The position numbers and the translations under genes were made by a program. From Pelagomonas calceolata (Eukaryota; Sar; Pelagophyceae; Pelagomonadales; Pelagomonadaceae), in NCBI GenBank assembly GCA_918797485.1, contig CAKKNE010000001.1, positions 1,488,001 to 1,552,000 of the forward strand: a DNA stretch of 64,000 nt. The letters are read 5' to 3'. The notes below the pieces were generated by a model. The model was not told the origin of the DNA. It did not search any database and worked only from the letters and a program-made list of their open reading frames with translations. Shown one piece after another: positions 7,483-61,024 of this stretch. The first letter of the stretch is position 1; every line of letters begins with the position of its first letter.

Positions 7483-8347
7483 CTAGAAGAGGCCGAAGAA
7501 CTTCTTCTCCGGCGCCTTCTGCCCGCCGGGCGTGATTTTGGGCGCGGCGCCCATCATGCGGCGGCCCGAGTTCATGCGCTTGATCTCCTGCTGCGACAAA
7601 GCGCCGGAGTCGCGCCACATCTGCTGGTCGTTCGTGAGGCCGTTGCGCTTCGCGCGCGCGGCGAGGTCGTCGCCCTTGGCGCCGCCGCCCCAGTTCAGGG
7701 CCTCCCCGAAGAAGCCGATGTCGGGCTTGATGTTGTTGTACTTCTTGTCCGACGCGAGCTCGCGCTTCTGCTCCGCTTTGCCGTCGTTGTAGGCCGTCAT
7801 GCCGAAGCCCGTCTTCATCCAGCCCTTCTTGCCCTTGAGGTCCGAGTTGTCCCAGGACCCGCCGCGCTGCATGTAGGGCACGTCCTTCAGCGCGATGTTG
7901 CCCTTGCGCACCTCGTCGGGGTTCACGGCGAACAAATGCGTCGCCTCGCCGCGCTCCATCGCGTCGACGAACGAGTTGAAGGAGCGGCTCTTGAAGCCGC
8001 GCGCGCCGCCCGCGCCGAAGTTCTTGCCCGTGCGCTGCTTCTTTTCTTTATCCTGGATCTTCTTCCACTCGGCGGCGGACATGCCTGCGCGTCGTCGACC
8101 GGTGAGTTTTGTTGCGCAAGCAGAGCCTCGCCCCGCCCCGCCGTCGCGCAGGCGCCGCGTCGACGGCGTGGAGGCCACGACGCGGCCGGGGGCGGAGTTT
8201 GAAACGCCGCGAAATTTGATTTGTACGCCGGGACGTGCCGCTCGGGACGTACGCGGAGAGTTTCGTGAGGCCCGGCGCCGTGGGGGCGGGCGGGACGAGG
8301 GCGAGCGCCGTCGCGACGAGCGTCGCGAGGAGCCAGTGCTGCGCCAT
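7483..8347 (-). CDS. Plastid- or secretory-targeted unknown protein
   Basis: 236 residues in two exons, 8347-8239 and 8084-7483, joined in phase 1 over a GC-AG introner. Exon 1 is almost entirely a presequence: MAQHWLLATLVATALALV, a hydrophobic ER-type signal, then PPAPTAPGLTK. This fits the bipartite targeting signals of complex plastids but could be plain secretion. The mature part (MSAAEWKKIQDKEKKQ...) is basic, rich in Gly, Lys and Asn, with aromatic patches (GGSWDNSDLKGKKGWMK, DIGFFGEALNWGGG) and ends KKFFGLF. I recognise no family. The presequence appears only if the intron is removed. Without it the mature ATG at 8082 would be taken as the start. Confidence 0.7.
8085..8238 (-). mobile_element. 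Introner forming a GC-AG intron
   Basis: A 154-nt intron. The left 8 bp GCACGTCC (8231-8238) nearly match the 8 bp after the acceptor, GCATGTCC (8077-8084), 7 of 8. The donor is the GC of the left copy; the acceptor ...GACGCGCAG is the element's end. The element starts CGGCGTACAAATCAAATTTC, close to the CTGTGTGGAAATCAAATTTC end of other copies, and contains CACGCCGTCGACGCGGCGCC. Reading frame and presequence logic support the splice. Confidence 0.75.
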
Positions 8348-9018
8348 GGCGTCTAGTGGTGCTGTGTCTGCTTTCGAAGCAAGTTGGATTGCGCGCCTTA
8401 TCGCTGCGGACGCGCGAGGAAATTGCACGAGGAGCTGCGATAGGCCGCTGAGATGGTAGACGTAGCTGGTGCGGTGCGTTGCGGGCACCTGGTTTGGTTC
8501 TGGCTGTCAAAACAGAGATTAGCAGGTCCTGACGGTCGACTTGCGTGGCATCGAGCTTGAGCGTGGTTTCTGTCTTTTGCGCGTGCGGCTCGCTCCCTTA
8601 CGCGTCGACTCGTCCGCAGGGGCGCCTTGTACGCCCCTCCCGTGCCGTCCGACGATGAAGCCCAAGGGAGCCCTCCACCAAAATCCTCACGGAAATGCCA
8701 CTAGGTTCGTGAACAAGGACGGCATTTCCCCATTCGACAGTCCCCAGATCGACGGGGCTGCCCCGTGATCTGCGCTGCAGCCCGAGTCCGGTTTGGAAGA
8801 AACCGCGCGCGCGTCCGGAAGCGAAGCAACGAAGCCACATACAAAGGGGTGGGGCAGGTGGGCGAAGAGGCCTGCTGGCGAGCCCCGCAAGCGTGCTGGA
8901 TGCGGCGATGTGCCGTGTAGCGCCCGAACTTCATAGACAACCCAAGACGCCGCACGCGCCCGCCGCCGATAAAGATAGCGAAAGGTGCATAAAACGAACG
9001 AACTTAAATATGGACAAT
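8348..9018. other. Intergenic, no supported gene
   Basis: About 670 bp between the start of the plastid-targeted protein and the 3' end of the GH5-like gene. Short open frames exist on both strands but none shows codon bias, a domain or a plausible start. No RNA gene seen. Confidence 0.5.
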
Positions 9019-11156: not shown

Positions 11157-12257
11157 ATGTATCGTGCAGCAGTGGCCGCTTTATGCTTCGGCAGCAGCTC
11201 AGCCTTCATCGCACCGCAGCCTGCTCGCGTGGCAGCGCCGGCTCTGCAAGCTGTGCCGAGAGATGATGCTGCCAAGCCCTTAGCTGCCCTGGCTCCCGCC
11301 GCACAGCTCGCGGCCGCACTGTCGCTTGCCACCATCACGATCGGTGCGCCCGAGGTCGCGTGCGCTGCAGTGTTGAACCAGTTTCGACTGAAAATGACCG
11401 GAGACGGTGTTCGCTTCCGACGCGAGTGCGCCAACGCAGGTTCGCCGCGACGTCGATGGCGCCGACGACGACAATCTCTGCGACGAGCAGCAAGAAGAAG
11501 GCGGTCAAGGCGGCGCCGAAGCGCAAGGCCCCCGCGAAGCGCAAGGCCGCCCCGAAACGCAAGGCCGCGCCCAAGCCCAAAGCGGCGCCCAAGAAGGCCG
11601 TCGCTCGCCGTGTCATTTCCGTCGGCGCGTCCTCGTTAATATGCACACGCGCAGGCGCCGAAGAAAGCGGTAAAAAAAGCAGCGCCGAAGCCGGCCGCGA
11701 AGAAGCCCACCGCCGCCAAACCCAAGGCGAAAGCCGCGCCGAAGGCCAAGGCGCCGGCGCCGAGGCCCGCCGCCGCGAAGCCCGCGCCGAAGGCCAAGGC
11801 CTCGAAAGCCGCGCCGGCGCCCGCGCCGGCGAAGAAGAGCGCCCTCGCCGTCGAGCCCGCCGTCAAGGCCGCGCCCCTGGACCGGACGTCGGCCAAGACC
11901 GGCGGCAACATCGGCTTCAAGCTGAAGGACGAGTCGGCCAAGCCGAAAGCTAGAGCGGCGGCCGCGCCCGCGGCGGCCGTCGACGACGGCACGTCGAAGC
12001 TCGCCAACAAGGCGGGCGCCAAGCAGATGAACCAGCTCGCGCGCGAGGCGCCCGGCGCGGCCAAGCCCCAGTCGATCAAGCTCGAGAAGAAGGCGGCGCC
12101 CGTCGCCAAATCGGCCCCTTCGAAACCCGTCCAGAAGACGGGCGACTTCTCCGTGAACCCCACGAAGCCGGGCAAGAAGACGTACACGAAGAAGGGCGCG
12201 GAGTCGTCCGACCTCTCGGACGCGGCGCTCGCCGAGAAGCTCCAGTCGAAGTTCTAG
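11157..12257 (+). CDS. Lys/Ala/Pro-rich H1-like protein behind a plastid presequence
   Basis: Best model: exons 11157-11380, 11440-11611 and 11655-12257, 332 residues. Exon 1 reads MYRAAVAALCFGSSSAFIAP, a signal peptide with the heterokont S-A-F plastid motif. Next come an Ala-rich transit part and LATITIGAPEVACA-AV, like a thylakoid-transfer or membrane segment. Exons 2-3 are dense in KAAPKRK/PKAKA repeats, as in histone H1 tails, ending in a less repetitive part (TGGNIGFKLKDES, NPTKPGKKTYTKK, DLSDAALAEKLQSKF). The introns are short, 59 and 43 nt. Alternative: the H1-like part is its own gene from ATG 11456 and exon 1 belongs to something else. The same 15-residue C-terminus recurs as a duplicate at 13963. 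Confidence 0.55.
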
Positions 12258-12293
12258 GTCTAGTGCCTAAACACCACCATCAAGAGACTCGGT
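12210..12293. repeat. 84-bp direct duplication, copy 1
   Basis: It covers the last 15 codons (DLSDAALAEKLQSKF), the TAG and 36 bp of 3' flank of the Lys/Ala-rich gene. It matches 13963-14046 with one mismatch (GTCTAGTGCC versus GTCTAGGGCC). Confidence 0.9.
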
Positions 12294-13875: not shown

Positions 13876-13962
13876 GGCGCGTCGGCGGCGTCGAGAGGGC
13901 TTGTGCGTGCACGAAGGACAGCACCCATGCACACTCGAGACGTCGACACACTCGATGCGACG

Positions 13963-14046
13963 GACCTCTCGGACGCGGCGCTCGCCGAGAAGCTCCAGTC
14001 GAAGTTCTAGGTCTAGGGCCTAAACACCACCATCAAGAGACTCGGT
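13963..14046. repeat. 84-bp direct duplication, copy 2
   Basis: A near-perfect copy of 12210-12293, located between the stop codons of the PDZ-like gene (13875) and the convergent PUB-domain gene (14089). It is no longer joined to the rest of the Lys/Ala-rich coding sequence. Confidence 0.9.
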
Positions 14047-15599: not shown

Positions 15600-18284
15600 T
15601 CACTCCGCGTTCTCGAAGTCCCCGCCGCACTTGATGTCCTTCCCCCCATTATCCGTGTCCTTGGCGCAGCACGCTCCAAAAATCTTCTTGCAGGGCTTGT
15701 CGTGCGTCTCGCGCCGTTTTTTGTCGGTTAACGTTTCGTAGCCCTCGCGGAAGACGCGGGACATGGTCTCGAGGTGGTCCGCTTGTGGTCTTGCATGTCC
15801 ATGTAAGATCTGCGCGTCGTCCAAGAGCAAATCGCCCGCATGGAGTAACTCGTCGGCTCGATTCGTATCATCGATTGCTTCCTCAAGAGCCTTCCTAGAA
15901 CCGCGCAGTGTAAACGGGATGGGGGGGAATAAGATCGCGGCGTCGCGGACCGCGTCCGCCGGCGACAGCCGCTTCTGCGAGACGAAGGAGCCGGCTTCTA
16001 CAAAAGCCGAAGAAACAGCATCCCTCAAACTTTTCAGTCGGTACTCGGCGTCGTACAACGCCTCCGTCGCGACGCGCCGAGCCCCTCGGGCGTGCGCGAG
16101 AGCTCGTCGCGCGTGCAAGTGCGTTTCTCGCGAAGCTCGTAGCGTCTCATTCAGCTCCGTTAAATTCCTCAGCGTCTCCGCCAGCATGCCCGCCACCGGC
16201 GCCATGCCAGCCAGGTAGGCATCGACCAACGTGTCGTTGTCCGCGTCCCGCAGCGTCGCCAGCGACAGGTAGTAGTCGTAGCCGAAGGGCGACGTCATCT
16301 GGAACCGGCGGCTGTGTGGAAACCAACCAGTGAGTTAGGTTAACGCCATCATGGAGACAACATCGCGTCGATGGCGTGGGATCGCCACGCCATCGCGCAG
16401 ACGCAGCTACAGAAGCACGGCGTGATCGCGCGAGATTTGATTTCCACACAGGCAAGCGCCGTTCGGCCCTCGCTAATGAAGTAGCAATAAATTCGGCCAT
16501 GTGCGGCCCGCACCCGGGCGGGTAGGGGTGCACCCGCCCGCAGAACGCCTCGCCCGCCCGGAGCTCCCGCGGCACGCACCCAACGGTCCAATTTTCTGCC
16601 GTCAGCGGATCACTAGGGTCCAAGCCATCCGGGCCCGGTCGGCCGTCACACGGCGGGAACTCCGAATCATAAAAGGGCATCTTGTACTTGAGTTCGGACA
16701 CCGTAAACTCCTGCACGAAGCGCGGCTCGCGTGCCGTGCGAGGCCCGCTCTCACAACTTATCCTCTGCGCCTCCGTCAGGCCTCGATCCTGCTCCAGCGC
16801 AGCACAGAACGTCTCGTGCAGGTTCGCGCGCACGTGCATCTTCGTGTATTTGGGCTGGAGGTACTTTTCGCGCTTGCAGTAGTCGTAGACCGCGTCGCCT
16901 GGCAACTGATAGGGCGACATCTCGACTCTCCCTTTCTCCTTGCCATCTTCGTGCACCGGGAAGAAGAACGAGATGGGGTCTCCTCTTTCACACTCGACGA
17001 AGCCATCGTTACAGGCGGCATGCAGCAACGCGTACCGCTGCTCGATATCAAGATCATATCTACGAGCATAGTCAAAGGCATTGTCCGTCGCCTCCTCGCC
17101 CTCCCAGACTTCGAAATTCGGCCAGTAGGCCATCTCCGGCACGCCCAGGATGTCCGCTGGAGACCGAGAAAACACCCTAGCTTTCGTTCTCGTACACGAG
17201 ACACCTTCCTGCGTACATAGATAAGCTAGTAAACTCTCGCGAAACTCTTTGGAGGACAGCCCGTGCTGCTTCCCAAAAAAATAGGCCGCGTCGACGCCCT
17301 CGTCGCCTGCGCGGTTTCGGAGATGGTGACGCGTCACTCGCGTCGCGTCGATGGCGTACGCCCGACCCCCACGCCATCGCCGCGACGCGTCACTCGTCGA
17401 TGGCGTATGAGCGCGGACGGCGCGTCGACGGCGCCCGCCCCCCACGCCGTCGCCGCATGGCGAGTCACGTATGAGTGATTTCGACACCGCTCGGCGCCCT
17501 CGAACATCCGCACCACGCCCCTCGGTTTGTCACTGCCGTCCACCGTGATCGGTAATTCTGGGAGAGGCTTCCGCCGACCTTCACACGACAATCCTGGTAG
17601 AGAACAGACATGATCTACTAAAGCTTTGCGGAACCAGCCATTGGGCACCCGCATCGGTTCGGATAAGGTATGGTTATCCAGCAACCAGTCGAGCTCCGAG
17701 ATCTGTTTCAAAGCTTTATCTCTTTCTGAACGTCTACGAGCGACGTGCTCCGTCTCCACCACAAGCTCCACATTCCGCGTCCTATTCTTCTCCCAGCGCT
17801 CGTGCTCCGCGTCCCATTTCGTGCGATTCTTGAGAATTTCCTTCTCCGCTTGCAACAAGAAGTACTCGACGGCCTTCGTGGGGTCCTCGTCCTCCCAGAC
17901 CTCGAGCTTGCCGGGGTAGCTTCGATCTTGATCCGGGGCTTGAATCGACTCTTCATAGTAGAGAGCTCGTGTCCTCCAACAGACCGGTAACTTCTCCAGT
18001 AAGTCTTTGTCGGCCTCCAACGTGCGTTCACAGACCTTCGCGGCGAGCATCTTCCGGAACCAACTCGGTAACTCGTTTTTCGCACAATACGCGGCGACGG
18101 CGTCGACGGCCGCGTCCTTCTCATAAAATTCTAAATCACCCAGTTGTCTCCCATCATCAGTGGCGATGGGGAACGCTACCAATAACTCGCCTTTCGGTTG
18201 GTCGCGGCTGAGGATGTCGACCACGGAAGCCCTGGTGAGTGCTATGATGGCTGCCCATAGGGCGCACAGCAGGGACCGCCGCAT
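15600..18284 (-). CDS. Large secreted repeat protein with two introners
   Basis: 781 residues from exons 18284-17498, 17306-16460 and 16311-15600; all three junctions keep frame (phases 1 and 2). Signal peptide MRRSLLCALWAAIIALTRA. The body repeats a module of about 100 residues: a beta pair ending LEVWEDEDPTKAVEYF or FEVWEGEEATDNAFDYA, then a short helix and a conserved Cys (KALVDHVCSLPGLSC, ESLLAYLCTQEGVSC, KMLAAKVC). The C-terminal part is helical with HARRALAHARGARR and ends with a Cys cluster (CKKIFGACCAKDTDNGGKDIKC). Similar EVWE(D/G)E modules occur in heterokont secreted proteins and glycosyltransferases, but I assign no function. Confidence 0.7.
16312..16459 (-). mobile_element. Introner forming a GC-AG intron
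   Basis: 148 nt. The element runs CTGTGTGGAAATCAAATCTC ... CACGCCATCGACGCGATG ... TAACCTAACTCACTGG, then TTTCCACACAG. Frame forces the donor to the GC exactly 8 bp before the element (GCGCTTGC). The octamer after the acceptor is CCGCCGGT, only 4 of 8 alike, so the duplication has drifted or the donor changed. Confidence 0.85.
17307..17497 (-). mobile_element. Introner (variant ends) forming a GC-AG intron
   Basis: 191 nt. Octamers GCGCCGAG (17490-17497) and GCGACGAG (17299-17306) agree at 7 of 8. The element begins CGGTGTCGAAATCACTC and ends CTCCGAAACCGCGCAG, which are roughly inverted copies of each other. The centre has two GATGGCGT/ACGCCATC fold-backs. The splice is phase 1 and joins FEG to DEGVDAAYF. 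Confidence 0.8.
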
Positions 18285-18391
18285 GTCGGGCAGCCCCCGG
18301 GCCCTTCCGAAGTTGTCCCTGGCGAGCGCTGCGGTCGCGTCGCGCCCCGGGAGGCAGGCTTCGGCTTGCTTTTGGGCGCTCGACGCTTTAG

Positions 18392-18413
18392 CTAGCGGCA
18401 TGTAAGACACTAG
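18392..18413 (-). promoter_or_regulatory. Intergenic CTAG...CTAG motif
   Basis: On the minus strand CTAGTGTCTTACATG followed by CCGCTAG. It lies 108 bp upstream of the secreted protein start (18284) and 270 bp from the divergent start at 18681. Confidence 0.55.
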
Positions 18414-18680
18414 CAAGCCGGCGCCGCAACCAATTGCGAAACAAGTGCCGCAAGGGCGCAAGTACTGCCTCCGCGCGCCGGTTTTCGGTTTGCGGCATCA
18501 CCCCGTGCGCGTGGCAACGCGTGGGCACGAGCGCGCTGCGCCAGCACGTAGTTGGTCGGGAGAGCCCAATCTCTGTGCTGCTCGCGTCGGCATACTGGTG
18601 GCTTGCGTGCACGCAGTGCTCCCTCGCGCGCGTAGACAGGCCCGACAGACGCTGCCGACGCGAGTCCCGCCGAAGAAACA

Positions 18681-29196: not shown

Positions 29197-29249
29197 CGTT
29201 GCGTGCTGCTCGCGCTGGGCAGCGAGTCGTGCTGCCCTGGCGCCGCCTC

Positions 29250-39008: not shown

Positions 39009-39023
39009 CGTCAGCGCAGGACC

Positions 39024-40785
39024 ATGACGGGCCGCATCTCCCCGCCGAGAAAAGGCGAGCGGTCGTCGTCGATGGACGACAGCGGTTTAGATCATCGCTT
39101 CGACAGCGGGAAGGGGTACAAGACGAAGCAGAGCGAGTTGGACGACGTGGAGCGCTACGTCGCGGGCTGCATGTTATTGAGGCACGTTGCTAGAGGCGAG
39201 CGCGAGCAAGCTAGAAAACTGTGTACCGATGATGCACGCTTGGTGAACTATCGCGACTACGATCGAAGAACGGTGTTGCATCTGGCGGCGAGCGAAGGGC
39301 GCCTCGGCATCCTCGAAGACCTGCTCAACCGTGGTGCTAGACCAAATAGGTCGGATCGGTGGGGCGGCTCACCTTTAGATGATGCCCTGCGGCACCGGCA
39401 CCACGCCGTCGCTTCCGAATTGCGGAAGCGCGGTGCGCGGCTGGGTGCTGGAGTAGACTACGGCGCGCAGATCATCGCGGCGGCCGCGGCGGGGGACGTC
39501 CGCGCCGTTGGAAGACCGTGTGGAAATCAACCAATCGAGCAGACGTCGCGTCGATGGCGTGGAGTTTGACGTGATTTCTACACAGGTCGAGGATTTACTT
39601 GATGATGGGGCCATCCATGCGAACGCGCAGGATTATGACGGAAGACGGCCGCTCCACCTGGCCGCCGGCGAGGAGCACCTGGAAGTCGTCACCCTACTCC
39701 TGAGCAGGGGCGCGGACCCGGGAGTCAGAGATAGGTGGGGCCACGCGCCCCTCGACGGGTGTAGTCATGATGGAGCGTGTGAAAAAGCACTCATAACAGC
39801 GGGCGCGCCGCCGCGGCGCATGGACGGCTCGCAGGCGTCGGGCCGCGGCGACCAGACGCCGCGAGACGGAGGTTGTGAGTTCATCACCGACCCGCAGGAT
39901 GTGGAATTGCTTGAGAGGTTAGGTGGAGGGTCCTTCGGCGTCGTGTATCGGGCGACGTGGCGGGGCACTCCTGTAGCCGCGAAATGTTTGAGGGCGACGG
40001 CGGGCAACTCCGAGGACGAGGCGCTAGCCCTCAAGGATTTCCACAACGAGGCCACCGTGCTGTTTCGGTTAAGGCACCCGAACATCGCCACTCTGTTAGC
40101 CTACTCCGACGCCCCGGGAAAGGAGATATTAGTGTCCGAGCTCATGCGGGGCTCGGTCCTAGATCGTCTTAGGGTATTAGGAGACGGCCGCTACTTACAA
40201 AAGCCGAAAGCGCTGCGATGGGCGACGGAACTATGTCGCGGCATGGCCTACCTCCACTCGCGGCGGCCGCCGGTGCTCCACCGCGATCTAAAACCCGGCA
40301 ATCTACTGCTGGACTCCAACGACTCCATCAAGATCACGGACTTTGGCCTGGCGACGATACGAGTCGCTTCTACGGAATCGAAGAGCCCCGGCCCCGACTC
40401 GCCGGAAGATCTAACGGGAACGACGGGTTCGTTCCGCTTCATGGCGCCGGAAGTCGCCGCGTCGAAGCCGTACGGCCGGCCCGTCGACGTCTACTCCTTC
40501 GCGATGATCCTCTACAATTTATATGCGTCCGAGCCGCCGTGGCGCGGTGAAAGTGGGGAAAGTGCGGCTCGGCACGGCATTCGGGGCGAGCGGCCGAATT
40601 TACCTCGTAGCTGGGATCAAAAAGTAGTGGATCTGATCCGCAATTGCTGGGCGCACGAGCCGGCGGCGCGGCCGTCGTTCTTGGCGATTCTAGACCTGCT
40701 CGACGAGCTCGCGTCGGCCGGCCTCGTCGAGGCGGACACAGCTTTTTCGACGAGGGCGAAGAAGGCGTGCTGCGTCGTCTCCTGA
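39024..40785 (+). CDS. Ankyrin-repeat TKL-type protein kinase
   Basis: 560 residues: exons 39024-39506 and 39586-40785, phase 0. About residues 85-240 are ankyrin repeats (RTVLHLAASEGRLGILEDLL; RRPLHLAAGEEHLEVVTLLL); one repeat is completed only by splicing. The kinase domain, about 275-545, has the Gly loop GGGSFG, the catalytic Lys in VAAKC, HRDLKPGN, DFG and MAPE. The sequence suits tyrosine-kinase-like or integrin-linked-kinase-like families common in protists. It ends CCVVS, a possible lipidation site. The ATG follows directly on four 29-bp repeats. Confidence 0.9.
39507..39585 (+). mobile_element. Introner in opposite orientation
   Basis: 79-nt GT-AG intron. Left octamer GTTGGAAG, right GTCGAGGA. 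Between the ends the order is reversed relative to other copies: GTGTGGAAATCAACCAATCG, then CGCGTCGATGGCGTGG, then GTGATTTCTACACAG. Splicing joins DVRA to VEDLL and restores an ankyrin repeat. Confidence 0.85.
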
Positions 40786-41189: not shown

Positions 41190-44100
41190 ATGTGCAAACA
41201 CCCGGAGGAGCCGGCTGGTGACGCGCACAAAGCCGCCGATGCAGCGGAAGCAGCGGAAGCAGCGCCCTACGACGCCGCGAGCCTCTGGTCGCGGTTGACG
41301 TACCGCTACGCGCTGCCGCTGTTTAGGATAGGCGTGCAGCGACCGCTGCAGATCGACGACCTACCAACAATCGCAACCAGAGACGAGCTGCCCGACGTCA
41401 CGCGGCGAATCGTGGACGCGTGGGAGGCCGAGCGCACAAAACCAAAGCCGTCGCTGCCCTGGGCCCTCGCCAGATGCATGCGTAAAGATCTGATCCTGAG
41501 CGGCATGTTGTTCCTGCTCGACTTTGGCGCTTTGGTGGCGCAGGCGGCGTTATTGCGCCCTTTCGTCAACTGGCTCGCCAGATCCACGGGCAACGCGGGC
41601 GGCGGCTTCTGGCGGGCAGCACTAGTAGTGATAGCGGGCCTGACCAACTTATTTGCCCACCACGCGGCGTTCTTCATGGTCATGCGCATCGGCTGGAACT
41701 TGAGGTTGGGCATGACGGTGGCCCTCCAGAAGAAGTTATTAAGAACAAGGGCCGCGGAAGTCTCGCGCGTCAGCACGGGCTTCATCGTCTCCTTAGTGAC
41801 GAACGACTGCCAGCGCTTCGATAACCTGTTGCCCTTTTTACACGCTCCTTGGGTTTCTGGGATATTAATCGTCGTGGCCTACTTCCTCATCTCGAACATT
41901 GTCGGATACGCTGCAAGTGCCGCTGGCTTATCAGTACTACTTGTAAGTGTGGCCATCCAGGCTCGACTGGGTTTCGTGTTCAAGAAACTGCGAGCCAAGA
42001 CGGCCAAGGCCACCGACGGCCGTGTTAGACTTATCTCGGAATTACTAAATGGCATTCTGTCCGTCAAAGCCTTCGCCTGGGAGGAGCCTTGTTTGGAAGC
42101 CGTCGCCGCCGCACGATCGAAAGAAGCGTCGACCGTGTTGAGGGCGCAGTGGTGCCGCTCCTTGACGGCCGCTCTCTACTTCTCGACGACGGCCATGTCT
42201 GTCTTCGCTACTTATGCCGTGTACTTCCGCACGCAGCGAGGTCACAAACTAAGTGTAGGAGACGTCACCTCATTGGTAGCTTTGTTAAATGCGTTACGGC
42301 AGATCGTGTCCTTCGGGTGTGCTTACTTTGCGATGGCCGGTCCGGAATGCTTGGTGGCTGTTCGGAGGATGCAGCGCTTTTTGGAACTCGACGAGTGCGC
42401 GCGCGTGCCGGTGCCGGTCGACGAGCATCTACTGCGGGCAGACGGTGCCACGGTCGCGTGGCCGCGCGCGTCGCATCCGGCGGTTCTCGACGCGTGCTGC
42501 GCCGTCAAGCCCGGCCAAGTTATCGTCGTGGCGGGCCCGGTCGGGTGCGGCAAGTCGTCGTTGTTGCAAGCGTCGCTGGGCGAGCTCGACGTCACTGCTG
42601 GCAAACTGGAGTCGAGCCGCGGCGTCGTCTACGCGCCGCAGTCATGAACTGTGTGGAAATCAAATTTCCGGCGCCCCACGCCATCGACGCGGCGTCGTTA
42701 ACTCACTCACAGGTCGGCCTGGATCTTCTCCGGAACGCTATTGGAGAACGTGACGCTTGGAGCGCAGAAGATAGATAGGCAAGCGTTCGACCGCGCCGTC
42801 GAGGCTTGTGCTTTGAGGGTTGACATCGATAGTTTAGAACACGGCGAACAAACGCTGCTAGGCGAGCGCGGCGTCAATCTGTCAGGAGGCCAGAAGGCTC
42901 GGGTTGGCTTAGCTCGATGCGTCTACGCTTCAGAAGTATCGTTAGCAGCACCATTAGCTTTACTCGACGATCCCCTCGCGGCCGTCGACCCAAGTGTAGG
43001 GAAACACTTATTGGACGCGTGTGTTTTCGGTGCTCTGAAGAAGTGTGGCGTCGTCTTAGCTACGCATTCAAGACAAGTGTTACAGCGGGCCGATGCTGTG
43101 TTGGTCTTAGATGCTACTGGCACTGCGCTAGGCTTCTCGAAGTGGCACGATTTACCAGAGCAGGCCCTGGCGTTGGTGCGCGTCGACGACGAGGACGAAA
43201 TAGATGAGGTCGTAGACGCGAAGGACGTCATCGTTACCACCACGAAGAGTAAGGAGGACGCACCGACACAGAAGGAGGAGACGCGGGAGGTCGGGGACGT
43301 TTCGATGAAAACGTGGGCGGGCTACGCTCGGAGAGCGGGACCGTACACCCTCATCATCCTTGTGCTATTGTTCGTCGTAGGCCAGGGCTTACTGGTCTAC
43401 GGCGACTTCTTTTTGCTGAACTGGGCGTCGAAGAAGCCGCGCCAACAGAGAAAGACGAAGTACCTCAAAGCTTATGCGGTGATAGCGGCCTGCCTCTTGG
43501 TCGTAGCGGTCACACGAGCCTCGTCCTTTTTTTGTTGGACCATCAAGGCCGCAAATGTCCTGCACAACGACGCTGTAAGTAGGGTCCTACGAGCGCCATT
43601 GTGGTGGCACCACGCGACGCCGCGCGGCCAGGTGTTGAATCGACTGTCCCAGGACGTGGGCAACGTGGACGAGTTATTGGCGCAGGCTTTGTTTGACATG
43701 ACCCAGTTAGGCATTATGATGTTATCTGTGGTAGTAACAGCTTGCGTCGCGTTGCCGTGGATGTGACTACCTGCGTGGAAATCAAATGTCAGGCGCCCCA
43801 CCGCGACGCTGTCCCTGTGATCGCGTCGGTAACCTAACTCACTGGTTGATTTCCGCACAGGTGCCTCGTCCTCCCGCTTCTGTTGTATGTTTTCCTGAGA
43901 CATAAACGATTTGTGGGAGCCTCAATGACGGAACTGAAAAGGCTGGAGGCCATCACGAAGTCGCCCGCAGTTGGGATCTTTTCCGATACCTTACATGGGT
44001 TGACAGCCACAAGAGCGTTCCGCGGCGAAGCGAAGGCGGAAGGGGCTTTACTAGGTGCATTAGATAAAAATGCGAGGTCCTGGTTCTGGTGGTTATTATC

Positions 44101-45267
44101 TCAAAGATATCTAGGGTTCTACCTCGACGCTATTTGTGTTACCTTTCTGGCATGCTTGTTAGTTGCGACCATACTGCTGAGGAATCATCATCAACCACAA
44201 ATCCTCGCGTTAGCTCTATTGTATGCGGTGCAATTAGCGGGCACGTTCCAGTGGACGGTCCGGCAGCACGCTTTAGCTGAGTCCTTCATGGCGTCTGTTG
44301 CTGTGTGGAAATCAAATCTCAGGCGCCTCACGCGATCGACGCGACAATGTCCTTGTGACTGCGTCTGCTCAATGGTGAGCAGACTCTGCTACGCCATCGA
44401 CGCGACGTTGTCCCCGTAACCTAACTCACTGGTTGATTTCCACACAGGTCCGTGGAAAGACTGGTCGAGTACGGAGACATGCAGGGCGAATCTCATGAGA
44501 GCGGCGCGTGGGCGCCGTCGTCCGGTACGATTGTGTTGGATGGCTTGGGCTGCCGCTACCGGGACGACCTGCCCCGGGTGTTATGTAACGTGTCGGCTTC
44601 CCTACAGTCGGGCTCGAACGTCGGCGTCGTCGGACGGACGGGCTCGGGCAAGTCGTCGTTGGTATTGGCTCTTGCTCGATTGAACTGTGTTGATGAAGGT
44701 CGAGTGTTGATCGACGGTGTGGATGTATCAAAGTTGCCGTTGGCGGCTCTGAGGCGCGCGTTGGTCCTCGTGCCGCAGGAGCCGCACTTGTTTCGGGGAA
44801 CGCTACGCTTCAACCTCGACCCGTGGGCCGAACATTCGGACGAAGCGTTACGGGCGACGCTCAAAATGCTGGGTCTAGCTACGGAGCTCGACGCGTCAAT
44901 CTCGGAGAACGGCGACAACCTCTCGGCGGGCCAGCGGCAGTTGTTATGCGTGTGTCGCGCCCTACTCGTGTCACGGCGCATCATTTGCGTGGACGAGGCG
45001 ACGGCGTCGGTCGATCAAGAAACGGACGCGGTCATCCAGAACGTCTTAAGGACGGCGCCCCAGTTCAAAAGAGCTACCTTGATCGTCATCGCGCATCGCA
45101 TCAAGACAATCGTCGACTCCGACCAGATTTTGGTGTTGGACCGCGGCCACCTCGTGGAAGACGGCGCGCCGGCCGAATTAATGGCGCAGAACGGGGCCTT
45201 CGCGGAGATGGTGCGCGCGTCGCGGTCGCGGTCGGCGACGAATCTTGTTGCCGCTGCAAATTCGTAG
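41190..45267 (+). CDS. ABCC-type full transporter with three introners
   Basis: 1250 residues from exons 41190-42640, 42713-43762, 43861-44292 and 44448-45267, all phase 2, with lengths that keep frame exactly. Order: short acidic N-terminus, membrane domain 1 (from about residue 100), NBD1 (Walker A GPVGCGKS, signature LSGGQ, Walker B LALLDDP), linker, membrane domain 2, NBD2 (GRTGSGKS, LSAGQ, IICVDEATASVD). The third junction creates the typical ABCC linker SVERLVEY. NBD1's Walker B has Asp where active sites usually have Glu, as is normal in ABCC. It probably exports conjugated organic anions from a vacuole or the plasma membrane. Confidence 0.95.
42641..42712 (+). mobile_element. Introner, truncated at the right end
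   Basis: 72-nt GT-AG intron. Donor octamer GTCATGAA, then CTGTGTGGAAATCAAATTTC, CACGCCATCGACGCGGCG and TAACTCACTCACAG. The usual GGTTGATTTCCACA part is missing. The right octamer is GTCGGCCT (3 of 8). Splicing gives APQ-SAWIFSG. Confidence 0.85.
43763..43860 (+). mobile_element. Introner
   Basis: 98-nt GT-AG intron. Octamers GTGACTAC and GTGCCTCG (5 of 8). The element runs CTGCGTGGAAATCAAATGTC ... TAACCTAACTCACTGG, then TTGATTTCCGCACAG. Splicing restores the membrane helix ALPWM-CLVLPLLLY. Confidence 0.9.
44293..44447 (+). mobile_element. Introner, full-length
   Basis: 155-nt GT-AG intron. Octamers GTCTGTTG and GTCCGTGG (6 of 8). Complete ends CTGTGTGGAAATC and GATTTCCACACAG, plus the internal CGCCATCGACGCGACG and its partial inverted copy. 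Confidence 0.92.
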
Positions 45268-49188: not shown

Positions 49189-51379
49189 TCATCGACTCTT
49201 CCCGTTCGCCTTCTTCTTGTACATCCGCGTGTCCGACGGGTCGAAGCCGTCTTCCGCCGCGCCGAGCAGCGCCCAGGGCGGGCAGGGCGCCTTGTAGTCC
49301 TCCACCGTGAACGGCTCGCCGGACGCCGCGAGCGCGTGGAAGCGGTCGTAGTCGATCCACGTGTCCCATGTCCCGTCGGGAGCCTTGAGCTGGTCGCAGC
49401 GCGCGAGGAGCACACTCACAGAATGTTTGTGCGCGCAGGCGACCTCATACGTCGGACATGAGGGGTGATCCTTCGCGATGCGAGCGGCCAGTTCCTTACA
49501 GAACGCCTCGACCTGTGTGGAAATCAACCAGTGAGTTAGGTTATCGCGTCGATGGCGTGGAATCGCCGCGCCATCGAGCAGGCGCAGTCACAAGGAGCGT
49601 GGGCGCCCGAAATTTGATTTCCACACGGGCCTCGACCTCGTGGTGCCACGGGCAGTTCGCCATCGTGAGGTCGGAGGCGTCAGATTTCCCGCAGAACGTG
49701 ACGCCCTTCACCTCTACCAGTGTCGGTTCGCCCAACGCGATCAATTCAGCGTAGCCCGCAATGTCGCCCTCGTTGTGGCCCTTCACCAATGTTAAGCGAG
49801 CTACCGTCCGCTGCTTCTTCTCCCTGAGTATCACCAAGGACTCCCTTAATCTTTCCCAGGCGTCCCGGAACAGCGGTCGATCGACCTCCTCCAGATCATC
49901 TTTATTGGGCGCATCGACACTCACATACAGCTGCGTCACCGGTCGTAGTGTTCGAATGGCCTCAGGAAATTGGGCGTTCGTGACCAGAAAACTCGAAATC
50001 TTCCGCGCGTGGAGCTCGCCGATGAGCTCGTTGATGCGAGGGTACATGATCGGCTCGCCGACGAGCGACAACGCACAATGCCGCACCGTGTGGGCCTCGC
50101 GCCATCTTTCTTCTAGCACGCCGGGCACGCCCCTGCACTCGTTGATCATCGCGACGTGCAAGCGCACGGCCTCGGCGACGATCATCGCCGGGTCATCACC
50201 TGTGTGGCACGACACCGTCGCTACACGCCACGTCGACGGCGTCGAGGCGATGCGGTCTCATGAAGACGCCATCGCCGCGACCACGTCACGTTCAAGTTCA
50301 CTGAAAACACCGAGTCACGCACTCTTCCACTTCCACTCCGTCGCGACGGGATTCTTGTGGTGCCGCCAACAAAAAACGCACTTGTTCGCGCAGGCTAAGG
50401 ACGGTGTGGCCTCCATGCATTGATACGAGGTAATCCCGTAGAAGGTATGTTTGTAGCAGCCGCCTCTTCCCCTTAATTGATGCTTCGTCCAGCGACACAA
50501 TTTCACGGCCGAATGCCCCCCTATTAACTTATATCCTTCTTTCTTGAGAGCTTTGGCCTGGGACTGCGTGACCATGTCCTTCGGGCCCTTGGCCTTTTTT
50601 TCTTCCTCCTTCTCGCCTAACGCAGCGCCCATGTCTTCCACATCTGTCACAGACTTCTTTTTCTGAGGAGCTTCCTCATCACTACTATCAGACACTCTAT
50701 GAGTCTTCTCGAGTTTGACCTTGCGCGGCTTCTGCTCGCCCCGCACCTGGGGCCGCGAGAACGCGGCCACTACTCTATTCTCCCATAACGCGTAGGTCTC
50801 CTCGGTCTCCTCCGTATCATCTAGGCGTTGGGAAGCGACGCGCGCCGCTCCTAATTTACGTAGAGTCTTCTCCGTGACACGAGCCGCGGTACAAAATCTA
50901 GCCGGGTCGTAGGCCGTCGAGCCACAACCTAGTACCGCAAAACGTCGGCCTCGCAAAGCTCCTTGGCCCACCCGATGATCCGCCGCAATATCATCTAATT
51001 CTTCCACCAACAACCGACGAGAGGGCTCCGGCGCGAGGCCGCCGTGGACTGTAGAAACTAACACGGCGCAGTCCCGGCTGTCGCCGTTCAAGAGCTCGTC
51101 CCAGGGATCGAGCTGGGGCTTCGCGGCGTCGACGACGATCGATGCTCTTCCGGCCTTGGCGAGGGCTTCTCTCAAGCGTCCTGCGAGCTTGCGCGACGTA
51201 CCCGTCACGGACGCGAAGACGATGAGAACCGGCGCGGCGTCCTGCAGGAACTGGCTTGTTGGTTTGGCTACTTTCGGTGCGCGTTTTCTCCTTTTTTGTA
51301 TGAGGAGCTGGACGACGTGGGCTGCTAGGAGCACTATGGTTGCTATCAGCGCGTAGTTGGCCGCCTCGGCGGCGTGCAT
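49189..51379 (-). CDS. TYW1: tRNA wybutosine-synthesizing protein 1
   Basis: 647 residues: exons 51379-50323, 50199-49637 and 49512-49189; lengths and phases agree. Order: an N-terminal membrane helix (YALIATIVLLAAHVVQLLIQ), a flavodoxin-like domain (VLIVFASVTGTSRKLAGRL), an acidic linker, then the radical-SAM core with CANKCVFC (C-x3-C-x2-C) and CWRHHKNPVATEWKWK. Further TYW1 phrases are HCALSLVGEPIMYPRI, SSFLVTNAQFP, VSVDAPNKDDLEEVDRPLF and EVKGVTFCGKSDASDLTMA. TYW1 builds the tricyclic core of wybutosine at position 37 of tRNA-Phe from N1-methylguanosine and pyruvate. The N-terminal helix suggests an ER-anchored form, as in other eukaryotes. Confidence 0.95.
49513..49636 (-). mobile_element. 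Introner with perfect 8-bp target duplication
   Basis: 124-nt GT-AG intron in TYW1. GTCGAGGC stands both before and after the element (49629-49636 and 49505-49512, identical). The left copy supplies the donor. The element runs CCGTGTGGAAATCAAATTTC ... CACGCCATCGACGCG ... TAACCTAACTCACTGG, then TTGATTTCCACACAG. Splicing gives HHE-VEAFCKEL. One of the youngest copies. Confidence 0.95.
50200..50322 (-). mobile_element. Decayed introner in TYW1
   Basis: 123-nt GT-AG intron, donor octamer GTGCGTGA, right octamer GTGATGAC, acceptor GTGCCACACAG. The left end reads CTCGGTGTTTTCAGTGAAC, similar to the CGGTGTCGAAATCACT variant. The inside has GCGGCGATGGCGTC and GACGCCGTCGACG. It joins WKWKS to DDPAMI, as in other TYW1 proteins. 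Confidence 0.75.
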
Positions 51380-51863: not shown

Positions 51864-54201
51864 TCACCGGGCCCGCGGCGCCCTCTTCTTGGCCGGCGCA
51901 TCTGCTGGAGGCGTGCGCCGCTTCGCCCGCCGCGGCGGCGCGGGCGCCGCCGCGGGCTCGCTCTGCGGCGGCGGCGGGAAGGTCGGCGGCGGCGGCGGGC
52001 GCCGGAGGCGGACGATGGTCTCGCCCTTGGCGTTGACGCGCGCGCCGGGGGGCAGCGGCGGGCGCGGCGCCTCTGTGGCCGCGGGCGCCGCCGCGGGCTC
52101 CTCCACGTCCATGGGCGCGGCGCGCGCGTGCTTTCTCTTGTGCTCCTCGAGCGTCTCCTCGAGGCGGCGGTAGTAGTCCGCCCAGTCCTCGGGGTCCAGC
52201 TCCGCGAGGTCCTCGAGCACGTCGCGCGCGCGGCGCTCCCCAAGAACGCGACCCGCCCGCACCCCGGCCTCAATCATGTCCGTCGTCACCCCGACCGCGC
52301 GCGCTTCCGCATCTATCACAATAGTAGGAGCACTTCCAGACGTACGAGTCGCGCGGAGCCGCGCGCGCCGCAGCTGCACCCCGAGGCCCCACGTATAATC
52401 CGAAACCATATAACGCAGATGGAGGCACGCCGCCGCGTAATCATCACTGGCGAAGGCGGTGTAGCAGTGCGGCTCGCGTCCGCCGGCTATAGCAGCGGTA
52501 TGAGTACAATAAAGGAGGCACTTGCGCGTCGTCTTTCTCGCCTTGCCGAAGGAGTGGAAGCCGTAATACTTCCTGATCAAAGCAATCTGATCCGGCGTAA
52601 ACGTCGTCCCAGACTCGGGCCGGACGTCGGCCGCCTCCAACAATCTAATATCGAGGCCCGCCTCGAAGGCGACCTCGTTGAAGCAGGCCAACGCGTCTCT
52701 AGAGCCGCTCTTCGACAGCTCCAGCGCGGCGCTCCAGTACTTGTCGACGTCCGTGACCAAATCCGGGTCCTTGCGGTGGAGCTCGACGTCGTTGCAAATG
52801 CAGAAGTGCCACTGGTCCATCCGCTGTCCAGGAGGCGCGACGACGAGGCCCCGAACTCCACCTCTATACAACTTAACCGTAGCTGCCCCATCCGCGGCCC
52901 TCAATTCGCGCATGACCTGCGTTCAACGAACCGTCGCGGCGCTCGCATAATCGGAGCGAGACTCTCTCCGAAGTCGCCGAAGCGGCGTCGCGTCGACGGC
53001 GTCGATGCTAATGTTCAAGCTCCACACTGAGTCGCACCAGCGAATGGCGGCCGCGTCCTTCCCGCTTGTTCGCGTCGTCCCACGACTTCTCCGACGGAGC
53101 CACGGGGGTTTTGCCGATGCGCGGCGTGCGGCCGAGCCTCCTGCACTTCTCCTGGTATTGATCGAGGGCGGCCTGCTCCCTTTCTGATAGGACTCGGACC
53201 AAATACCGGTCGAGGTTCTGGTCCATCCAGGGCTCACCCGCCCGCGCCTTGCGCGCCGCTTCCTTCAGCTCATCTGACAACCGGCAGAAGATGGGCGAGT
53301 CGTCTAGCTTGCCCTTGAGGTGGTCCAGTGCGCACGCGATGGCCATGACGCCGGCGGCTCTATTGGCCTCGGCCTGAGTGGTGCCGCCGAAGGTAATGCG
53401 TAAATCTCCTCCAAAGTTTGCGACTGTACAACGAGCCAAACAGCAGCCCGGGGCCAATCGATCCTGTTCATTGGCACGCGCCGGCCCCGCACAATTTTCG
53501 GAAGCAAACAATTTCATCCCCGGCTCGTCCAACGTGTCGGCCTCGAGCCACCGTCGGAGGCTGACTCCAGTTGTTGCTGTCGCTCCCTTCTTCCAGGGGC
53601 CGTCGTCTCGCGCGTCGGTCCCTATGGTCTTATCGAAAGATCGGTCTCTCACGTCTTCCTTGGCATTGAACTTCAGCCGATCGATAGGTAGCACGTGTCG
53701 GCCGTCGTCGCCGCGTGATGTAGCCGCGGCTTCGGCCAGCTCGACTTTGTGCCCGTCCACCGTCGCGTAATGAATTTGTCTAGCTCCGGTGGACTTGGAC
53801 CACTTCGCCGTCGTCCAGCCCTTCGGCACCTTTACTTCTATTACATGATGACCCTCGTAGCCCTTGGGCACTTTTAGACCACTCGCTTTTGACCACGCTC
53901 GCATCGTCGTGCGGCCCACGATTTCACCATCTTTGCCGCGGAGGCGCATCGGCGTGTCCGATTTCTTTTTTGAGCGATCTACTTTAGGCACAGTTTGCAG
54001 CAGTTCGCCCTGGTCCGCCGCGAAGAAACTCCTTCGCTTTGTAATTGACTCGCCGGCGCCGCCCTCGTCCGGAGCGAGATGCACCTTGTCGTCCAACGTG
54101 GCGCTGTACCAGCCCTTGTCGGAAATGGTGACCGTCGCGATGCGGCCGCCCGCGGTCCGTATTTGCACGCCCACCGTCGGCGCGGCTGGGGTGGCTTCCA
54201 T
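51864..54201 (-). CDS. Unknown nuclear protein joined across a decayed introner
   Basis: 738 residues from exons 54201-53038 and 52916-51864, phase 0. Taken singly, each exon looks like its own gene, but the first ends without a natural C-terminus and the second starts right after an acceptor. Exon 1 has a repeated beta motif (VRTTMRAWSKASGLKVPKGY-like, then KVPKGWTTAKWSKSTGAR), a Cys-rich stretch (APGCCLARCTVANFGGD) and a helical end. Exon 2 has WHFCICNDVELHRKDPD, FTPDQIALIRKYYGFHSFGK and a Pro-rich, Lys/Arg-rich nuclear tail (PPRRAKRRTP). No known family. The start is ATG 54201. Confidence 0.55.
52917..53037 (-). mobile_element. Decayed introner
   Basis: 121-nt GT-AG intron. Donor octamer GTGCGACT is followed exactly 8 bp later by CAGTGTGGAGCTTGA, a worn copy of CTGTGTGGAAATCAA. 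Then CATCGACGCCGTCGACGCGACG and the acceptor TTGAACGCAG. The right octamer is GTCATGCG. Confidence 0.65.
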
Positions 54202-56396: not shown

Positions 56397-56995
56397 CTAG
56401 AGGCGGCCGTAGCGCAGCTGCATTGCGAGCGCATTCTCGGTGAGCTCGATGGCGCCCTGCCACCCGGCGCCCGTGTGCTCCTTCTTGAACTGCTCCTCGG
56501 TGTTGCGGTCGAACTGGTTGTTGAGGCACTTGATCATGAGCTGCGGGGGGCGGGGGACTGGTGCGTCGGTACGAATCCGCGGGGAAACGTCGCGTCGATG
56601 GCGTGGAGGGGAGAGCGCGGGTCCCGGAAAATTGAAGGCCCCTTGACGCCGGCCCGCGCGCAGAAATTATTGGGGTCGTCCATGAGGGGCGCCCAGACGT
56701 GGTCGAGCTGGAACCACTTCGCCTCGAGCAGCTCCTTGAGCGTGTCCGAGTCGAGGCCCCAGCCGTAGGCGTCCTCGAGCATCTCCTGGAAGAGGTCCTC
56801 CTTGATGAAGGTCTCCTTGACTTTTCTCAAGAACGTGCCGTATTGCGCGCGGTGGCCGACGGACTCGAACGCCTCGCGGATCTGCGCGGAGTTCAAGGTC
56901 AACTTCAATTTCAACTCGGACTTGGGGCGGGCGGTGCCGCCGCCGGCGAGCCGGGCGCCGGCGCCGGCACCAGTGCCAGGTTCATTTTCGGCGGC
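56397..56995 (-). CDS. Small helical unknown protein, uncertain start
   Basis: The certain parts are about 56914-56648 (KLTLNSAQIREAFESVGHRA, TFLRKVKETFIKEDLFQEML, DTLKELLEAKWFQLDHVW) and, after a 107-nt intron, 56540-56397 (LMIKCLNNQFDRNTEEQFKK ... LTENALAMQLRYGRL). The N-terminus is unclear: ATG 56995 needs another small intron to reach the main frame (for example GTGCC...CCAAG, giving MPPKMNLAL-SELKLKL). All-helical, soluble, no family recognised. Confidence 0.5.
56541..56647 (-). other. Intron with introner core
   Basis: 107 nt, donor GTCAAGGG, acceptor CCCCGCAG. It contains CACGCCATCGACGCGACG, identical to the core of the clear copies, but the ends are lost. Confidence 0.55.
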
Positions 56996-58824: not shown

Positions 58825-59479
58825 CGCTGCGGCGGCGTCTTGGGGGTCTGAGACTCCCCTGCGCAGCTCTGAACTTGGCCGCTCGACCTTGGCGTTGTGC
58901 GCGCTCGCTGCAGTGGCTTCTTGGCTGTATCTAGGACTGCCAACGGCAAACGTAACGTAATTTGCGTCCGCGCGTCGACCGCTATTCGACCCGCTTTGCC
59001 GAGTCTCAGGCGCCGCAAATCGGGTTTTGAATTTGAAACGTCCGTGCAGCGGTCCGAGGCGTCTCGGAGGGCTCCGCTCCGAGGCCTGCGACGGCTCGCT
59101 GGCCCGTCGAAAACACTGCGCTCTCCGCAAAACAGGGAGACAAGCAGCGGCTTTATCGACTTGTGCGAAGCCCTCGCGCGAGCCAACCAAGCCATCGCCT
59201 AGGCGTATCTCTTTGCCGCAGTAGCGAGCGCAAATTCGGCTCGTCTTCGGGTCCTCGGAAGCCCCGGCGCGCCCAAAAAAGAGGCTTGGCGCCTGGCAAG
59301 CGAACACATTAATCTAAGGCCGCGGCGGCGCAAGCGCGCCCCGAGACGGTCGCGCGCGCTTGCCACAGTCCGGGACCCAACACAGAAGGCCCCCTGTACT
59401 CTCAAACAGCTTGCGCCCGCACACCGCGCGGACCGCCTCGCCGAGCCCTATAAAAAACACAAAAAGCGGCGACCGAAAC

Positions 59480-61024
59480 ATGGCCGAGGCCTGGCGCTCG
59501 AAGCCCTTCCCCCAGACCGTCGCCTGCCAGATCTGCACCCTGGAATTGACCATACCAAGCCCGGAAGTGATCCCGTTCCTGAGTTGCGAGGCCTGCGGCG
59601 CGACGCCCTGCGCGCGGCTCTGTGGCAGGTGGTTCGCGAGCGAGCAGGGCGCGGCGAAGCACACGCTGAGCTGCGGGCGGATGGCCGCCAGGAAACCGAA
59701 ACCCCCGGCGTCGCCCCCGAGGCAGGCTTCTACTTTACCGGTGCACGGCTTGTTGGAAGGTGCCGCTCCCCCAGCGCCCTCGCCCGTCGTCACGCCGCCC
59801 GTGCCGGGCGCGCGCGACGCCGCCGTCGCGCGCGCCGGCGCCGCCGCGCCGCGAGGAACCGTGGTCGTGAACGGGGAGCCCCGGGGTGCAGGGGCGCCGC
59901 CGCCGAAGCCCAAGGCGAAGAGCTCGGCGCCGAAGCCCAAGGCGCGGCCGAAGAAGCGCGTCAAACGAGAGGCGCCTCCACCAGCACCGGTGGAAGAGGC
60001 GGAGCCGCTGCCGCCAGCGCCCGCCGATAATGAAGTTGCGGAGGGCGCGGCGCTCGCACCCCGAGCCTTCCGCGAGAAGCTCAGCAAGGCCCTCGACAAG
60101 CTAGGCGGCCGCTACAACCTCGAGACGTCGCCCGGCGTGCGGGGCAACTTGCAGCCCGCGGTCCAAGTGTGTGCTTCCGGCCAAAGAGACGCGCACTATG
60201 GAGCGGTGTTGCCGGCGCTGGTGGTCTCAATCTGTGTGGAAATCATGACCTCCACGCCATCGACGCGGCGCCTGCTCGACGGCGTGGCGATGCCGGTTCC
60301 TCACCGCTCGACTCACTGGTTGATTTCCACACAGGTCTCAATACTACGCCACGCGCGCTTCCAGCCCGGCGAGACCTTCGCCGATGTGGGGAGCGGTATT
60401 GGCACCGCGGTGCTACAGACGGCTCTTACGACAGCGTGCGCGCGAGCGACGGGCGTCGAGGTCGTCCAGACGAGACACGAAGCGGCGCTCCGAGTTCATG
60501 CCGCACTGAGGGAGCTACTTTCCGATGACGAGCGTTCTATTCTAGAAGCCAAGTGCGCTCTTTGTCTCGGCGACGCGTTTTCAGATTCAACCTCTGCCTT
60601 CCTAGCTTCATGTGATGTCCTCTTCGTGAACAACGCGTCGGGCACGATGGCTCCCGAACGCGTCGCCGGCACGGCACTCGACGAGCAGCTCGCGAACGTC
60701 GCGAAACGGTGCCGCGTCGGCAGTCGCCTCATCGCGATGGACCGGATCCCTTTGTTAGATGAGTGCAACGCGTTCAAACTGGAACAGTTCTACTCGTCGG
60801 AACGCGCCGTGACCTGGACGGACGCACCCGTGCCGTTGTACGTCTACGCCAAAAAGGCGGACACGTGGCAGTGTCGAAGATGCACCTTCGCCAATCCATT
60901 AATGGACGACTACCACTTCATCACGGAGTGCCAGGCCTGCTCCGACGAGATGCGGAGTCGCTTCGGTTTGAACGACGGCGAGCGCATTTCCGGGAGGAGG
61001 TCGCGGTCGCCGCGGCCGACTTAG
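59480..61024 (+). CDS. DOT1-like methyltransferase with zinc fingers
   Basis: 477 residues after removing the introner (exons 59480-60223 and 60335-61024). The N-terminus has Cys pairs (CQICTLELTIPSPEV, CEACGATPCARLCGRW) and a His/Cys pair (KHTLSC). A Pro/Ala/Lys linker carries the basic patch PKKRVKRE. The catalytic part has GETFADVGSGIGTAVLQTAL, GVEVVQTRHEAALR and DVLFVNNASGTMAPE, matching the SAM site and NN motif of DOT1-type histone H3K79 methyltransferases. Near the end is a RanBP2 zinc finger (WQCRRCTFANP...ECQACSDEM). DOT1 with a RanBP2 finger is unusual; a nuclear, chromatin-bound role is likely. Confidence 0.8.
   Translation: MAEAWRSKPFPQTVACQICTLELTIPSPEVIPFLSCEACGATPCARLCGRWFASEQGAAKHTLSCGRMAARKPKPPASPPRQASTLPVHGLLEGAAPPAPSPVVTPPVPGARDAAVARAGAAAPRGTVVVNGEPRGAGAPPPKPKAKSSAPKPKARPKKRVKREAPPPAPVEEAEPLPPAPADNEVAEGAALAPRAFREKLSKALDKLGGRYNLETSPGVRGNLQPAVQVCASGQRDAHYGAVLPALVVSICVEIMTSTPSTRRLLDGVAMPVPHRSTHWLISTQVSILRHARFQPGETFADVGSGIGTAVLQTALTTACARATGVEVVQTRHEAALRVHAALRELLSDDERSILEAKCALCLGDAFSDSTSAFLASCDVLFVNNASGTMAPERVAGTALDEQLANVAKRCRVGSRLIAMDRIPLLDECNAFKLEQFYSSERAVTWTDAPVPLYVYAKKADTWQCRRCTFANPLMDDYHFITECQACSDEMRSRFGLNDGERISGRRSRSPRPT
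60224..60334 (+). mobile_element. Introner with perfect duplication and open frame
   Basis: 111-nt GT-AG intron, GTCTCAAT on both sides (60224-60231, 60335-60342, identical). Ends CTGTGTGGAAATCATGACC and CACTGGTTGATTTCCACACAG, with the core CACGCCATCGACGCGGCG. The length is a multiple of three and no stop occurs, so retention would insert 37 residues just before the methyltransferase SAM motif. Confidence 0.95.

Follow-up and report, generated by a model that had tools for sequence, protein, structure and literature searches.

How can a new intron enter a gene and leave its exons intact? The question is raised by a 64,000-base stretch of the marine alga Pelagomonas calceolata (contig CAKKNE010000001.1; 62.7% G+C), the whole of which is referred to here as the window. 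Dispersed along it is a family of short elements with inverted ends (CTGTGTGGAAATCAA...TTGATTTCCACACAG or variants) and a shared core (CACGCCATCGACGCG), which sit in genes as introns. A first-pass annotation had described nine of them as introners, each element lying between two copies of an octamer, the left copy of which provides the donor splice site. Judged from the bases at their borders, these introns were very probably made by the insertion of non-autonomous DNA transposons resembling miniature inverted-repeat transposable elements (MITEs), with the donor taken from the duplicated target.

The element family and its copies

The family was searched for with a profile built from five copies and then from eleven, and matches were found in the window and in contigs of two bacterial metagenome-assembled genomes (MAGs). 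Sixteen element-derived introns were placed, 12 in the window and four outside it (L33a, L33b, L34a and L35a). They are 65-191 bases long, with an inserted element of 57-183 bp, and resemble one another up to their boundaries while being dispersed over unrelated genes, as expected of introners. Pairwise alignments between copies outscored shuffled controls, also for the weak copies A, J, K and M, whose best scores of 40-46 lie above the shuffled maximum of 25.5. In 11 of the 16 introns, the left end departs from the consensus at no more than 3 of 15 positions and the right end at no more than 5 of 15, which identifies them as terminal inverted repeats (TIRs). The profile search and the alignments thus bear out the annotated element with inverted ends and a common core, lying as introns. 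The nine introns of the first-pass annotation were not listed individually; the set that fits best is B, C, D, E, F, G, H, J and I, to which A, M and K are additions. The twelve introns of the window are given below with the octamer at the donor, the octamer at the start of the downstream exon, and the number of identical positions.

Intron A, 1310..1412, minus strand: eroded introner-like intron in the gene for the Rab2-like GTPase; octamers GTCCCGCG at the donor and GCGTCGAG in the exon (4/8)
Intron B, 8085..8238, minus strand: GC donor, diverged ends; octamers GCACGTCC / GCATGTCC (7/8); placed by frame only
Intron C, 16312..16459, minus strand: GC donor, near-intact ends; octamers GCGCTTGC / CCGCCGGT (4/8); placed by frame only
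Intron M, 17307..17497, minus strand: GC donor; octamers GCGCCGAG / GCGACGAG (7/8), left end CGGTGTCGAAATCAC; placed by frame only
Intron D, 39507..39585, plus strand: in an ankyrin-kinase gene, element antisense; GTTGGAAG / GTCGAGGA (3/8), donor 9 nt upstream of the left end
Intron E, 42641..42712, plus strand: first of three introners in the ABCC4-like transporter gene; GTCATGAA / GTCGGCCT (3/8), right end shortened
Intron F, 43763..43860, plus strand: second of three in the ABCC4-like gene; GTGACTAC / GTGCCTCG (5/8)
Intron G, 44293..44447, plus strand: third of three in the ABCC4-like gene; GTCTGTTG / GTCCGTGG (6/8), both ends exact
Intron H, 49513..49636, minus strand: in the TYW1-like (wybutosine) gene; GTCGAGGC twice (8/8)
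Intron J, 52917..53037, minus strand: diverged; GTGCGACT / GTCATGCG (3/8), left end CAGTGTGGA; placed by frame only
Intron K, 56541..56647, minus strand: eroded introner-like intron with the core kept; GTCAAGGG / CTCATGAT (4/8); placed by frame only
Intron I, 60224..60334, plus strand: in the DOT1-like methyltransferase gene; GTCTCAAT twice (8/8), right copy at 60335-60342

An 8-bp target duplication

When the bases from the start of each intron were compared with those from the start of its downstream exon, positions 1 to 8 matched in 13, 15, 13, 8, 10, 11, 10 and 10 of the 16 introns. The corresponding counts were 2, 3, 1, 5, 2, 4, 3 and 6 at positions 9 to 16, and 4, 6, 1, 7, 3, 2, 4 and 8 at the upstream positions -8 to -1. 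As identity is raised only at positions 1-8, the duplication has a fixed length of 8 bp, as in a transposon target-site duplication (TSD). With the donor dinucleotide excluded, positions 3-8 gave 62 matches in 96, against 32.0 with shuffled partners (P = 2e-5). The nine introns of the first-pass annotation taken by themselves gave 30 in 54, against a shuffled mean of 15.4 (P = 0.001). The downstream exon begins with GY (GT or GC) in 13 of the 16 introns, compared with a frequency of 0.171 in the window.

The two octamers are identical in five introns (H, I, L33a, L33b and L34a) and agree at 7/8 positions in B and M, 6/8 in G, 5/8 in F, 4/8 in A, C, K and L35a, and 3/8 in D, E and J. The annotated layout therefore holds as an 8-bp flank identity, but the second copy that it described is exact in only two of its nine introns, H and I, and inexact in the other seven. 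An unguided scan for repeated GY octamers with at most one mismatch returned 13 places in the window, against 1-7 in simulated controls. Only H and I among these had real element ends, so that near-exact octamers do not by themselves identify copies; outside the window, the same looser scan recovered L33a, L33b and L34a. Exact octamers combined with complementary ends were found at 31 places, compared with 0-2 in five simulated controls, and the described ends again occurred only in H and I. The other 29 places are presumed to be GC-rich or coding repeats. A preference for a palindromic target (GTCNNGAC) was also considered, with A at position 7 in 8/16 introns and C at position 8 in 7/16; it is not claimed.

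Splice sites, reading frames and homology

The donor is GT in 13 of the 16 introns and GC in three (B, C and M), and in 13 it lies exactly 8 nt upstream of the left end of the element. No recognisable left end lies 8 nt from the donor of A. In C, a GC 6 nt deeper would, by eye, also preserve the frame. All 16 introns end in CAG, which forms the final bases of the element wherever its right end can be recognised, in agreement with the annotated acceptor. The reading frame is open across all 16 joins.

The position of the donor was examined in an offset test on 15 gene copies (the 13 with a donor at -8, together with D and L35b, a copy excluded from the 16), in which only the two element ends were fixed and the donor was moved. 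At -8, GT or GC was present in 14/15 copies, an open join in 14/15, and both together in 14/15, with D failing. At every other offset between -20 and -1, GY and an open join coincided in only 0-4 of the 15. Inside the element, they coincided in 6/15 copies at +2 and in 12/15 at +4.

Homology covers 9 of the 16 joins (A, D, E, F, G, H, I, L34a and L35a). Joins A (Rab2), E, F, G and H align to homologues without a gap, and a Wyosine_form match crosses join H. Pfam matches cross D (Ank domains), I (DOT1, beginning about 10 residues before the join), L34a and L35a. In L33a and L33b, the domain match ends short of the join. The joins of B, C, J, K and M were placed by reading frame alone. No Pfam family matched the joined segments of B, C, J and K or the ORF (open reading frame) at 17337-18497, which holds the upstream exon of M, and the protein of the B gene had no match among solved-structure sequences at E 0.1. 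Together with the offset test, these frames and homologies indicate that excision would leave the exon intact, as the first-pass annotation had proposed. Exon length thus appears unchanged, with one splice site drawn from the element and the other from the duplication, as far as can be told from sequence alone.

Candidate branch sites were sought in the last 45 bases. CTAAC occurs at -27 in C, F, G and H, and TTGAT, as part of the inverted end, at -15 in F, G, H, I, L33a, L33b, L34a and L35a; both are read as putative branch sites. No match to the pattern YTNAY was found over the same 45 bases in A, J, K and M.

A proposed mechanism and the orientation of the elements

In the proposed sequence of events, a transposase presumably encoded elsewhere would insert an element of 57-183 bp and 8 bp of target would be duplicated. 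The left octamer copy, starting with GT or GC, would then serve as the 5′ splice site and the CAG at the end of the element as the 3′ splice site, so that left octamer and element would be removed together and the exon restored. Once intronic, the left octamer would retain its GY and be otherwise free to change, while the right copy would remain coding. The inverted end, with TTGAT at -15 followed by TTTCC and CACACAG, may act as a 3′ splice signal. Since each inverted end would hold such acceptor-type signals, either could serve as the 3′ splice site and the element could be spliced in either orientation. TSDs of 8 bp are known from the hAT, P and other superfamilies of DNA transposons; this length alone does not decide the superfamily of the element.

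Two copies do lie antisense to their genes by similarity to the other copies, D (scores 264 vs 158) and L34a (362 vs 147), and both joins are supported by homology. The layout in the first-pass annotation is to be corrected accordingly for such elements. Pairwise scores leave the orientation ambiguous for L33a (174/191) and M (179/187), with nhmmer favouring antisense for L33a. In predicted folds, the ends pair in all eight introns tried, in E over 5 bp, with z-scores from -6.1 to -1.0; this pairing follows from the inverted repeats and no function is inferred from it. Scans of the window with Rfam at the gathering threshold and for tRNAs gave no matches.

Weighing the evidence

Several results weigh against insertion with a donor from the duplication. 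The donor of D lies 9 nt from the left end, not 8, and so departs from the annotated donor at the start of the octamer, which the offset test otherwise upheld. The element of L35b (L035:722-782, antisense) passes that test only in a frame in which the conserved protein is lost; an in-frame GT was seen by eye 3 nt ahead of the element. As the donors of the 16 introns were chosen by eye and with regard to the frame, their 16 open frames are not an independent test; the offset test is one, though any of the three frames passes in it, and wrong frames are often open in GC-rich DNA. The nine least similar octamer pairs, left after setting aside the five exact pairs, B and M, do not match significantly more often than by chance (22/54 against a mean of 17.5, P = 0.125), and octamer mismatch does not increase with end mismatch (Spearman -0.51, p = 0.075 for the 13 introns with a recognisable left end; -0.02 for all 16). 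Of 37 ORFs picked in the window, 20 were scanned, and none of these had a transposase domain at E<=0.001. Lastly, a GY is present at +4 in all 15 copies of the offset test, with an open join in 12.

This last result raises the rival of a donor that lies 4 nt into the element from the left (CTGT|GTGG), such that the mRNA would keep the octamer and four nucleotides of the element, 12 nt or four residues in all. The +4 site is GT, but GC in L33b (for example, it falls at position 60236 in intron I), and in 12/15 copies its use would add four residues and no stop. The same 8 + 4 arithmetic has been published for Aureococcus sp. family 4, according to an excerpt of PMC9860276, and a donor at +4 would account for left octamers staying exact in some copies. 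It would, however, run into a stop in E and F and shift the frame in D, and the homologues of E, F, G and H lack a four-residue insertion at these joins. It also leaves the GY at -8 in 14/15 copies unexplained, and agrees with the usual donor consensus at 19 of 105 positions, compared with 36 of 105 for -8. In the +4 frame check, the open frames shown by C and L35b were other than the conserved one. A donor at +4 is therefore judged improbable as a general account, and -8 is kept as the putative donor; where the octamer has no stop, +4 stays a rival.

It is far less probable that the element was a passenger which entered pre-existing introns, as might be suggested by the eroded introns A and K, whose donors do not adjoin a recognisable element end. 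A passenger would not be expected to have the donor exactly 8 nt before its left end in 13/16 introns, the acceptor at its last base wherever that end is recognisable, and a duplication straddling intron start and exon start. The least credible account is that the introns spread through RNA by reverse splicing, carrying their own 5′ ends. The octamer pairs of low identity would then need no duplication, but the left octamers vary among copies, and reverse splicing of a sense intron would not be expected to yield the antisense copies D and L34a. Reverse splicing would copy whole introns without TIRs or a TSD, whereas inverted ends and five exact 8-bp duplications are found here. Insertion of a DNA transposon, with the donor taken from its duplicated target, is thus retained.

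Octamer change and element decay

The octamers and the elements do not appear to have aged together. In C, D, E, F, G and L35a, the left ends are near-intact (0-1 mismatches in 15), yet the octamers mismatch at 2-5 of 8 positions. The elements of these six differ from their nearest copies by 0-8%, a lower bound on divergence given that the alignments are gappy, as against 2-5 differences among the six octamer positions 3-8. The left octamers of E and F contain an in-frame TGA, which implies that the left copy is intronic there and that the change took place in it. The mismatch may reflect a faster change of the donor octamer, swapping of elements, a donor shift from +4 to -8, or noise from small numbers.

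One addition, compatible with insertion, is that copies with exact octamers are plain insertions, while in C, D, E, F and L35a the element was swapped or converted within an older introner, or the donor octamer changed quickly under selection. Elements of these five that are 0-8% off a near copy at aligned sites, with 3-5 of 6 octamer positions different, fit this account, as does the lack of a positive link between octamer and end decay. On the other side, the gappy alignments understate divergence, the copies are few, and no signal was found of a drift of the left octamers towards RAGT (12 vs 10 of 36). The addition is accordingly tentative. It is a little more doubtful that, after insertion, the donor octamer changes at a much higher rate than the remaining introner sequence, through swapping or conversion or through a remodelled 5′ splice site, perhaps by a shift from +4 to -8. 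If this were true, introner sites would be lasting docking places that go on evolving, and not the fossils of single insertions.

Copies outside the window

A scan of genome contigs with an 18-base pattern from the element end matched two contigs, NZGT01000054.1 (from a Spirochaeta MAG) and CAJWHT010000282.1 (from a Desulfobacteraceae MAG). NZGT01000054.1 looks algal, with an acetyl-CoA carboxylase-like gene that appears to encode a plastid-type leader. CAJWHT010000282.1 is probably a chimera, its first ~1.1 kb looking eukaryotic and the rest encoding a bacterial histidine kinase. Among the stretches retrieved, the introner family is present on L033, L034 (NZGT01000054.1) and L035 (1-1200), and the core sequence only on L046, L047 and L048. 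L033 and L034 look like algal contamination in MAGs, and the contig behind L035 like a eukaryote-bacterium chimera. With the family present in such contaminants of marine MAGs, further copies should be recoverable.

On L034, a copy without a left end (2229-2397) lies, by eye, between head-to-head paralogous genes, with a right flank beginning GTC; it appears to be intergenic or in a 5′ leader. An intron of the acetyl-CoA carboxylase-like gene at about 6460 of L034 has, by eye, a decayed family core and a GTTCGGAA donor, which suggests that older introns also derive from introners.

An 18-base and a 19-base element pattern had no matches in viral contigs. Viruses as carriers were rejected: a 15-base end occurred in 43 viral contigs, and in the stretches fetched its paired end was absent within 600 bp at up to three substitutions.

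Other features of the window

Eukaryotic genes within the window include those for Meckelin (a cilium protein), an ABCC4-like transporter, a Rab2-like GTPase, a TYW1-like enzyme and a DOT1-like methyltransferase. An ORF at 33192-35636 combines DinB_2, FGE-sulfatase and methyltransferase domains, an arrangement known from ovothiol/ergothioneine-type enzymes. The ORFs at 5494-7230 and 27985-29259 are related, both having DUF285 repeats and a GC-rich periodic repeat of 12/15 bases. An 89-base repeat occurs at 12205-12293 and 13958-14046 (97% identical, 1.75 kb apart), and a tandem repeat with a 29-base period and about four units at 38893-39035.

Comparison with known introner systems

The window adds a clear example of new introns whose features can be followed at single-base level, from duplication, donor and acceptor to orientation and decay. 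The 8-bp duplication, the GT/GC donors and the antisense copies fit DNA transposons with symmetric ends that seed introns either way round, and two possible donors 12 nt apart in one element bear on the choice of the co-opted splice site. The mechanism has already been published for other algae, and the copies described here are another set of such elements. PMC12403724 summarises Huff et al. as describing an introner that co-opts a splice site from the target duplication, and PMC9860276 reports 548 introner families, some of which bring their own 3′ splice site and obtain the other, the 5′ site, from the TSD; both agree with the mechanism cited in the first-pass annotation. Insertion in both orientations was likewise reported by Huff et al., according to an excerpt of PMC10228655, and the antisense copies found here are therefore not new.

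The introners of Aureococcus anophagefferens and Micromonas pusilla (Huff et al. 2016, Nature 538:533, via PMC12403724, PMC10228655 and PMC9860276) are likewise described as non-autonomous DNA transposons with inverted ends. As here, one splice site is carried by the element and the other comes from the target duplication, and both orientations occur; the Aureococcus family is likened to the present one by description, not by sequence. Family 4 of Aureococcus sp. (TARA_AOS_82_MAG_00129, PMC9860276) also combines an 8-bp TSD, a marine alga and short introns (77 bp by coordinates in one example), and here too 4 + 8 nt would be added by a GT lying 4 nt within the element. Family 4 is described as supplying both splice sites itself and lengthening the mRNA by 12 bp, whereas E, F and D could not be spliced at +4 in frame, and an unchanged exon length fits best here. 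The introners of Symbiodinium microadriaticum (PMC9860276) have TIRs, their own 3′ splice site and a donor from the TSD, as in the window, but their TSD is 4 bp rather than 8 bp. Those of Amoebophrya (PMC7789003) share direct repeats at the borders of the introns, along with inverted repeats able to fold; the direct repeats are 3-5 nt with mostly non-canonical splice sites, in contrast to 8 nt and GT/GC-AG here. For Pelagomonas calceolata itself, the G+C content (63%) agrees with that of the window, but the published intron-length peak lies near 210 bp, compared with 65-191 for the 16 introns placed here.

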